A DNA stretch of 44,706 nt from Bacteriovorax sp. Its GTDB lineage: Bacteria > Bdellovibrionota > Bacteriovoracia > Bacteriovoracales > Bacteriovoracaceae. The stretch covers positions 1 to 44,706 of the forward strand of contig JACMNL010000007.1 in NCBI GenBank assembly GCA_014378525.1, written 5' to 3'. The position numbers and the translations under genes are program-made. The first letter of the stretch is position 1; each line of letters starts with the position of its first letter. The notes under the pieces are model-generated. The model saw only the letters and a list, made by a program, of their open reading frames with translations, was not told the DNA's origin and did no database searches. Shown in pieces: positions 9,944 to 11,267 of this stretch.

Positions 9944-10195
9944 CTATTCGAACTCTACATCAATTCCATCAGGGCCGATTTCTACAGAGACTTCTGCTGC
10001 TTCTTCTTTTTTTGCATCAACAACAATATTCTTTAAGTCTTCAACTGAGATTTCCGGATCTAGATCGAAATCGAGAGAGATGGCATTCACAAGATTGTGA
10101 AGGACTTCGTAGTCACGTAATGCTTTGAACTGGTCAATCTTTACGGTAAGAGTGTAAGTGTGGTCTTTGGCATCCTGAACGACATCTATTTTCAC
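9944..10195 (-). CDS. small acidic protein of unknown function
   Basis: An 83-residue acidic protein without signal peptide or membrane segment, with a predicted beta-alpha-beta pattern (MKIDVVQDAKDHTYTLTVKI and a C-terminal EIGPDGIDVEFE). The GTG start is supported by AGGAGA eight bases upstream. It is convergent with cpaF (15 bases apart). I do not recognise the family. Confidence 0.65.
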   Translation of the reverse strand: MKIDVVQDAKDHTYTLTVKIDQFKALRDYEVLHNLVNAISLDFDLDPEISVEDLKNIVVDAKKEEAAEVSVEIGPDGIDVEFE

Positions 10196-10242: not shown

Positions 10243-10539
10243 TTATTCTTTGATCTCTTTAATCGTCATTGAAGGTATTATAGCAACGACTTTCACTTTT
10301 TGATCAATTTTTTGAGCTTTTTCAAGCTTTGCTTTAATTTCTGCGAATTGCGGATGTTCTTTGCCTACCTTATAGAGGGCCGCATGGCGGTTAAACTTGA
10401 CCACCAGGACGGGTCCTTCTTCAGTGACTGACTTGATGGCGTCGGTAAAGGAGTCGGTTAATTCAGGCTTCTGCATAGTCTCTGCTTGTAAGTGGGATGA
10501 AAAAAGGAGTGAGGCAAATACAACAAGAAGTGATTTCAT
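10243..10539 (-). CDS. small exported partner of the glutaminase gene, unknown function
   Basis: A 98-residue protein with a signal peptide (MKSLLVVFASLLFSSHLQAE). The mature domain is about 78 residues with GPVLVVKFNRHAALYKV and a C-terminal VKVVAIIPSMTIKEIKE. Its ATG overlaps the stop of the upstream glutaminase-like gene by four bases (ATGA), so the two are translationally coupled. Coupling of an exported enzyme with a small exported protein suggests an inhibitor, chaperone or immunity-like role. That is inference; no family was recognised. Confidence 0.7.
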   Translation of the reverse strand: MKSLLVVFASLLFSSHLQAETMQKPELTDSFTDAIKSVTEEGPVLVVKFNRHAALYKVGKEHPQFAEIKAKLEKAQKIDQKVKVVAIIPSMTIKEIKE

Positions 10540-11267
10540 TCGGATCCTTTGGCGCTTAGTTTCTGGGTCATCTCGAGCATCTCACCCATGCGTCCATAAT
10601 TGCGGTTGGTTTGTTTCATACTATCTAAATCTTCTTCTGAATAATCTTTTAAATCGGCGTGACGTGAATCGGGGTCGTAGTTAAATCTTTTGGTGAAGTA
10701 TTCACTCTTCATTCTGGAATTTGGATTTTTTAGTAAAAAAGATTTCCATTCATCGTAAGAAACCGGGTGATCAAAAAGACCCGGGTCAATCACTGTCGGA
10801 ATATTTTTTCCATTTTTTTTCACCATCACCAGACTCGCTACATGATAACTCCATCCGGCCTCACCTAATTTGGTGTCGACAAAAAGTTCGCCTTCTACAA
10901 AAGCTTTCCCTGATACAATTCCCATGTCATCCATGTCGAGGGCCATCTTGTGAGCTCTGGCATAACAGCCGTCGAGTGGATAATTAAAAGGAATGTCTTC
11001 ATCATTTTTTAGCTTGTTAAAAACATCCATCGCACGCTCTTCCGTCATAACTGTAAGCTCAACACTTTTTTTATTAAGAGCTGAGTAGACGGTTGCTGAC
11101 TGAACTTGAGATTGCGCGCACTGACTGCAGTTTTCATCTGTATCAATTGATCCGGCACTTTTAATTTTTGAAGAAAATGATTTGAGTTGATCAGTGAGAG
11201 CATCACTCGCATATAGCGATGAAAAATTTAAGATCAAAAGGGACGTAATAAGGAAACTACGAATCAT
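10536..11267 (-). CDS. exported protein-glutaminase-like deamidase
   Basis: A 243-residue protein with a signal peptide ending SLYAS. Residues about 97-165 match the protein-glutaminase fold known from Chryseobacterium: DGCYARAHKM with predicted nucleophile Cys101, WSYHVASLV with His142 and VIDPGLF with Asp161. The same three blocks occur in the same order and spacing in the Chryseobacterium enzyme as I remember it. That enzyme deamidates glutamine side chains in intact proteins. An N-terminal C-x2-C pair (NCSQC) lies in what may be a propeptide. The following small exported gene overlaps it by four bases. The target is unknown. Confidence 0.78.
   Translation of the reverse strand: MIRSFLITSLLILNFSSLYASDALTDQLKSFSSKIKSAGSIDTDENCSQCAQSQVQSATVYSALNKKSVELTVMTEERAMDVFNKLKNDEDIPFNYPLDGCYARAHKMALDMDDMGIVSGKAFVEGELFVDTKLGEAGWSYHVASLVMVKKNGKNIPTVIDPGLFDHPVSYDEWKSFLLKNPNSRMKSEYFTKRFNYDPDSRHADLKDYSEEDLDSMKQTNRNYGRMGEMLEMTQKLSAKGSE

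Follow-up and report, generated by a model that had tools for sequence, protein, structure and literature searches.

We studied a pair of overlapping genes in a 44,706-nucleotide stretch of DNA (hereafter, the window), which is contig C126 of a 3.6-Mb genome; among named relatives, MAGs of Bacteriovorax and Bacteriovoracaceae come nearest to it. The upstream gene encodes a predicted protein glutaminase and the downstream one a small, probably exported partner. Comparisons of their sequences and structure models suggest that the pair is most likely a split zymogen or an enzyme-immunity pair, the small half of which would be the pro region of the commercial enzyme. Protein glutaminase is a commercial food enzyme and, to our knowledge, its biological role is obscure.

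Gene organization of the locus

Both genes are in the minus strand. The features of the locus, with the basis of each assignment in parentheses, were the following:

10536..11267, minus strand: protein-glutaminase gene, 243 aa, ATG at 11267 and TGA ending at 10536 (PF18626; PDB matches by sequence and fold)
11208..11267, minus strand: probable Sec signal peptide of the glutaminase, residues 1-20, ...SSLYA/S (by eye; low pLDDT in the model)
10740..11033, minus strand: catalytic core, Gln_deamidase_2 domain, residues 79-176 (PF18626 match)
10965..10967, minus strand: codon of Cys101, the predicted nucleophile, in DGCYARAH (aligned to 2zk9/3a56; invariant in 18 sequences)
10842..10844, minus strand: codon of His142, in WSYHVA (aligned to 2zk9/3a56; 17/18 sequences, Asn in L041)
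10785..10787, minus strand: codon of Asp161, in IDPGLF (aligned to 2zk9/3a56; 18/18 sequences)
10536..10539, minus strand: ATGA overlap of the enzyme stop and the partner start (four bases common to both ORFs)
10243..10539, minus strand: partner gene, 98 aa, putative stand-alone pro-region homologue (profile, fold and profile-profile matches)
10483..10539, minus strand: probable Sec signal peptide of the partner, residues 1-19, ...SHLQA/E (by eye)
10249..10458, minus strand: pro-like domain that the partner is predicted to form, spanning residues 28-97 and made up of three strands, a helix and two strands (AF2 pLDDT blocks 81-98; Foldseek top matches 3a56/3a54)
10372..10386, minus strand: HAALY motif of the partner, H52-Y56, Ala53 corresponding to Ala47 of pro-protein-glutaminase (hmmsearch alignment; Ala in 46/59 pairs)

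The translation contained the 243-residue ORF with DGCYARAHKM, WSYHVA and IDPGLF in the order given by the first-pass annotation, and the ATGA shared by the enzyme stop and the start of the 98-residue gene was likewise confirmed. The same annotation took both proteins to be exported, a prediction that agrees with their N-termini, each of which presented by eye a hydrophobic stretch with an AXA-like end (LYA in the enzyme and LQA in the partner). Among 59 distinct enzyme-partner pairs the -4 spacing of the window's ATGA was found in 15, and the two genes overlapped in 39. A promoter scan found no promoter-like site in the minus strand; the promoter and terminator scans returned 2 and 1 sites, compared with 3.5 and 1.4 in shuffles. 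An 83-aa gene (window positions 9944-10195, minus strand) lies 47 nt past the partner and showed a weak match to the trigger-factor N-domain only; it is kept at the locus in several relatives, including those without the glutaminase. Kinship with known predators is what would link the pair to predation.

The window enzyme is a predicted protein glutaminase

The profile PF18626 (Gln_deamidase_2) matched the 243-aa protein with 97 bits (curated cut-off 25) and E 9e-28, and it was the only Pfam family found in the enzyme, with no delivery domain and no eCIS-core. By sequence search, residues 91-180 matched PDB 2zk9/2ksv (E 3e-14), and Chryseobacterium protein-glutaminase chains matched the protein at E 3e-14 to 9e-14. 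The NCBIfam equivalog NF040782 (Chryseobacterium-type) gave 72.3 bits against a cut-off of 250; by sequence, then, the window enzyme appears to be of the same family as the NF040782 proteins, outside that equivalog. In an alignment of 18 sequences 12 columns were invariant, C101 and D161 among them, and H142 was present in 17 of the 18. The three residues Cys, His and Asp occupied the positions aligned to 2zk9/3a56, and we take a Cys-His-Asp set at these positions to be the protein-glutaminase triad. This assignment agrees with that of protein glutaminase in excerpts of PMC9396377. A paired glutaminase elsewhere (L041, 1809-2561) carries Asn for the catalytic His (WGYNVA), although the partner encoded with it shows good conservation.

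The AF2 model of the enzyme (mean pLDDT 85) presented the glutaminase fold: its best structural matches were six protein-glutaminase chains (E 5e-11 to 2e-9), followed at a distance by the next match at E 0.28. Residues 21-56 were modelled as one helix (21-37) and a low-confidence stretch (38-52), i.e., there was no covalent N-terminal pro domain. The family profile, the sequence match to solved structures and the fold all upheld the protein-glutaminase assignment proposed in the first-pass annotation. Judging from sequence and model, the window enzyme is a new member of the known protein-glutaminase family, and as such it should change glutamine to glutamate in proteins.

The partner resembles the glutaminase pro region

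The single partner sequence found nothing near the cut-off in Pfam or NCBIfam, no match in the PDB and weak matches only in PHROGs, the best being phrog_31892 (unknown function, E 0.007). Since the single sequence finds nothing in the PDB, the link to the pro region needs a profile or the fold. We built a profile from the partners of the window and its relatives, 20 in all, and compared it with 177,635 PDB sequences: the pro-enzyme 3a56 came first (E 0.01) and 3a54/3a55 second (E 0.23), the third match having E 1.8, and the alignment covered chain residues 29-90 of pro-protein-glutaminase. No staphostatin chain was among the partner's PDB matches at E up to 10. In the AF2 model residues 31-98 of the partner had pLDDT 94-98, and a Foldseek search of this model against 350,542 chains also ranked the pro-enzymes first, with 3a56_A, 3a56_B and 3a54_A as the top three (E 6e-4 to 2e-3, TMq 0.64-0.65, rmsd 1.6-1.7). 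When the partners were compared by hhalign with 8 Bacteroidota pro regions, signal peptides removed, the match extended over 73 columns with probability 95 and E 6e-8. A first-round profile, made exclusively from Bdellovibrionota, reached the pro regions of four Chryseobacterium enzymes (L169, L170, L164 and L159) at sequence E 2e-5 to 1e-3. These profile and fold matches strongly support the view that the partner is homologous to the inhibitory pro region of protein glutaminases and stands alone as a separate protein, and this homology gives strong support in turn to the predicted role of inhibitor or immunity protein that had been suggested for it.

The first Ala of the HAA-Y motif of the partners aligns to residue 47 of the pro-enzyme. 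The 3a54 entry corresponds to the A47Q1 mutant, and the structure paper (Hashizume 2011) reportedly, according to its title, turned pro forms into an enzyme-substrate complex; going by this entry and title, the residue aligned to 47 should sit at the active site. Over the 59 pairs the position was occupied by Ala in 46, Ser or Pro in 11, Asn in one and Asp in one. The pair with Asn (G008) has an enzyme with DAC for DGC and YHAA for YHVA, which is suggestive of a joint change. An apparent natural Gln at this position in Chryseobacterium stand-alone proteins was discarded, as the Gln falls in the next column, like Gln48 of the pro-enzyme.

Enzyme and partner distances correlated over the 59 pairs (r 0.72; best of 1000 permutations 0.11), a joint divergence that partly reflects shared descent. 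A comparison of paralogues is a cleaner test: in six genomes with at least two pairs, the partner was closer to the partner of the nearest foreign enzyme than to the other partner of its own genome in 14 of 14 cases.

Distribution of the enzyme and the partner

The window's genome has five PF18626 places. Besides the one in the window, two long glutaminases (552 and 628 aa) also have downstream partners, the fourth copy (L004, G000:C85:8397-8819) ends early near a contig end, and the fifth is divergent. At L001 (1992-2537) and L013 (1998-2551), two long glutaminases are each followed by two tandem partner genes.

The gene pair is kept in related genomes. In 57 genomes, the window's own plus relatives, we tabulated 74 PF18626 places, 26 of which had a partner directly downstream; inspection added two more, G022:C7, where the chosen start gave a longer overlap, and G031:C88, whose partner is divergent. 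A partner was thus downstream at 28 of the 34 best-scoring places and was not found at the other 40 of the 74. Over the phylum, the partner profile matched 84 of 368 genomes at E up to 0.01, the weakest of which may be chance matches, and PF18626 matched 221 (216 over the cut-off). At least 61 of the 110 partner matches lay within 1.2 kb downstream of a glutaminase, among the 152 places listed. Ninety-three places were partnerless; 40 of these, mostly higher-scoring rather than random, were fetched, and no partner was found at any of the 40 when their ORFs were compared with the partner profiles (E 0.1), two of the contigs (L235 and L251) ending soon after the enzyme. A weaker match to the partner profile was found in a group of Bacteriovoracaceae proteins of ~300 aa with a fused N-terminal domain (L072, E 6e-5; L064, E 6e-4). 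By hhalign, nine of these proteins matched the partners at E 2e-9, signal-peptide columns included, and the group matched the Bacteroidota pro regions with probability 60 and E 9e-5.

Forty-nine partner matches were unpaired among the matches listed; 19 of them were fetched together with the pair L221, and 15 of these 20 loci were inspected, including two glutaminase pairs (L221, and L223, whose glutaminase was absent from the places listed) and two loci broken by contig ends (L219 and L220). Three same-genus relatives (L037, L043 and L045) have kept the partner intact, in each case with the common 82-83-aa gene after it and with no adjoining glutaminase. Another relative of the window's genus (L051) has only a damaged partner remnant, again with no glutaminase adjoining. 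Four genomes of one genus (g71; L215-L218) have a stand-alone partner homologue of 103-105 aa, also with no adjoining glutaminase, next to a gene for an exported protein of 137-141 aa and another that resembles 3-dehydroquinate synthase (by eye). Such stand-alone partners fit an immunity role and could also mean another function. The dN/dS between stand-alone and paired partners was 0.09-0.18 in four comparisons, all with dS > 1, and undefined in two, these being pairwise values that are not assignable to the stand-alone branch. Weak partner-profile matches, which may be unrelated, were seen just upstream of large exported L,D-transpeptidase-like genes (by eye) in L222 and L231.

A scan of genome contigs with the enzyme alone confirmed no relative. 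Eighty named glutaminase loci were chosen by the enzyme alone, as the best 80 of 241 from an alignment query, and searched with a partner profile free of the signal peptide, which at E of 0.05 or less matched 50 of their 1,976 ORFs. In 43 loci, 12 of which are contigs that supplied training sequences, a match adjoined the glutaminase, either no more than 300 nt downstream or immediately upstream; in 6 loci a match lay inside the N-terminal region of the glutaminase, and 3 loci are counted in both groups; none of the 1,976 ORFs matched away from a glutaminase. Counted by domain at E < 0.05, there were 44 rows beside, 3 inside and 0 elsewhere, the best of five shuffled sets reaching E 1.1. With the signal peptide kept in the profile, all matches with E < 0.01 were beside or inside a glutaminase, and two weak ones were elsewhere (L098, E 0.04; L139, E 0.38; best decoy 0.12). 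A second-round profile, which already included Chryseobacterium pro regions, gave 47 beside, 9 inside, 6 both and 30 of the 80 loci with neither.

Outside Bdellovibrionota, loci with an adjoining partner belonged to alphaproteobacterial, Bacillota and Saprospiraceae MAGs and to Chryseobacterium, Pedobacter and Elizabethkingia. In Chryseobacterium (L159, L164, L169 and L170), Pedobacter (L157) and Elizabethkingia (L167) a fused pro-enzyme is accompanied by an adjoining stand-alone copy. This copy measures 103-123 aa, in L167 as part of an ORF of 206 aa, and in many cases its start resembles, by eye, that of a lipoprotein. Pfam located PF18626 together with an eCIS-core domain in L143 (alphaproteobacterial MAG) and L144 (Calothrix), and with a WXG100 domain in L123 (Herpetosiphon); by eye, L148 is like L144 and L128 like L123. 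A recognisable partner was found in only one of these five loci, L143, where it has 76 aa, overlaps the enzyme gene and lacks an apparent signal peptide. A phage or plasmid origin was rejected: a search of viral contigs with one pattern confirmed no relative, and there was one distant plasmid match.

Proposed mechanism and alternative explanations

We consider it quite probable that the two genes together encode a protein-glutaminase zymogen split over two chains, with the partner capping the active site in trans. The 243-aa enzyme, with the putative triad Cys101-His142-Asp161, would be exported via Sec with no pro domain of its own, and the 98-aa partner, probably translated from the same transcript through the overlapping start and stop codons, would be exported separately and fold as an OB-like pro domain. 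The partner may then cover the active-site cleft, its HAALY residue Ala53 being placed like Ala47 in Chryseobacterium pro-protein-glutaminase, and would keep the enzyme off in the periplasm of the producer. The enzyme would be turned on once the partner is degraded or left behind, e.g., outside the cell or in prey; release could be due to prey or predator proteases or to separation on export.

Excerpts of a study of the Bacteroides helcogenes enzyme (PMC13139226) report a 12-kDa band, taken for the cleaved propeptide, that co-purifies with the mature enzyme, and cite another study in which 4 M urea was required to strip the propeptide from the Chryseobacterium enzyme; from both observations it follows that a pro domain can hold with no covalent link. 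In the same excerpts the B. helcogenes enzyme already shows activity in its pro form, although 17-fold less than in the mature form, and cleavage of the propeptide raises activity (PMC13139226), so that capping need not be complete. The two-chain zymogen has against it the many PF18626 enzymes with neither a partner nor a fused pro domain, as well as the stand-alone partners, the Asn for His in L041, the Asn for Ala in G008 and the lack of a promoter-like site.

On a wider scale, we tentatively suggest, with a little less confidence than an even chance would give, that the pro region might be one instance of a mobile inhibitor module for protein-deamidating enzymes across several phyla. Its forms would include a cis fusion with the enzyme, a trans partner that is exported, a lipoprotein-like protein encoded next to the pro-enzymes of Chryseobacterium and Pedobacter, and a partner that has no signal peptide and goes with cargo that is apparently injected. 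On this view the known zymogen would be an enzyme-immunity pair joined into one chain, and the lineage of predators would maintain a deamidase arsenal, several members of which have a matched cap.

A strict immunity function, with the enzyme serving as an antibacterial effector against which the partner shields the producer and its kin, rather than controlling a zymogen, seems to us rather unlikely. It would account for a partner gene that is small, downstream and overlapping, for the intact partners of the three relatives with no adjoining glutaminase, and for the partner homologue of L143, which lacks an apparent signal peptide and overlaps an eCIS-core cargo gene; the window enzyme, however, has PF18626 only, with no delivery domain and with a probable Sec signal. 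Immunity also differs from the two-chain zymogen in purpose more than in mechanism.

The partner would instead be a folding chaperone if it helped the exported enzyme to fold and was then discarded, without acting as an inhibitor. Since each chain has a probable signal sequence, the two could come together in the periplasm, and propeptides often both inhibit and aid folding, as stated for subtilases in excerpts of PMC6993865; on the other hand, the pro region of known enzymes lowers activity, according to excerpts of PMC13139226. Many PF18626 enzymes have no such domain nearby, and it therefore seems unneeded for the fold in general, which makes a pure chaperone improbable.

It is very improbable that this small exported protein is unrelated to the pro region and has no more than an OB-like fold in common with it: this fold is common, many OB-fold proteins follow the pro-enzymes in the Foldseek list and the PDB profile match has an E of only 0.01, but the pro-enzymes came first by two methods with the profile-profile comparison in agreement, the signal-peptide-free profile matched at glutaminase genes only, and the Bdellovibrionota-only profile reached four Chryseobacterium pro regions.

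A separate pro-region gene that diverges together with its enzyme in relatives of predators, and that is also found beside an eCIS-type cargo gene, points to enzymes that may be harmful to the cell producing them, and to a pro region that may have begun as, or become, an immunity module. With the two-chain zymogen as the preferred explanation, the partner would provide an industrial enzyme with an inhibitor that lends itself to direct testing, small exported genes without a Pfam match would gain a likely function, and there would be a concrete hypothesis of how Bdellovibrio-like bacteria might alter prey proteins.

Comparison with known systems

Pro-protein-glutaminase of Chryseobacterium proteolyticum (3a56 and 3a54; mature enzyme, 2zk9 and 2ksv) has the same catalytic domain and triad positions as the window enzyme, and its pro domain has the same predicted fold and motif as the window partner. 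In Chryseobacterium this pro domain is covalently attached as the N-terminal part of a single chain, whereas in the window it would be a separate exported protein encoded downstream.

The SpeB-Spi and staphopain-staphostatin systems resemble the window pair in having a cysteine enzyme with a small inhibitor or inhibitor-like gene alongside, and Spi resembles the SpeB propeptide. Each consists of a papain-like cysteine enzyme and a small specific inhibitor whose genes are adjacent and co-transcribed, according to excerpts of PMC3462683. SpeB and the staphopains are proteases, and Spi and the staphostatins are thought to be cytoplasmic in those excerpts (PMC3462683), unlike the window partner, which is probably exported. 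SUB1-ProM of Plasmodium, described in excerpts of PMC6993865 as a stand-alone subtilisin propeptide-like inhibitor encoded beside enzyme genes, is similar to the window partner as a stand-alone propeptide homologue adjoining an enzyme gene, and differs from it in that it inhibits a serine protease and belongs to a eukaryotic parasite. Separately encoded propeptide-like inhibitors are thus known for proteases; for protein glutaminases, full-text literature searches, with subscription papers mostly outside their scope, returned no report of a stand-alone pro domain or a separate inhibitor.

The eCIS-core (DUF4157) cargo proteins of L143 and L144 share the PF18626 domain with the window enzyme, and that of L143 also an overlapping partner homologue; the window protein differs from them in having no eCIS-core domain and a probable Sec signal. 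In excerpts of a review of papain-like enzymes (PMC10318531), PF18626 is named as protein glutaminases that have Dot/Icm genes near them.
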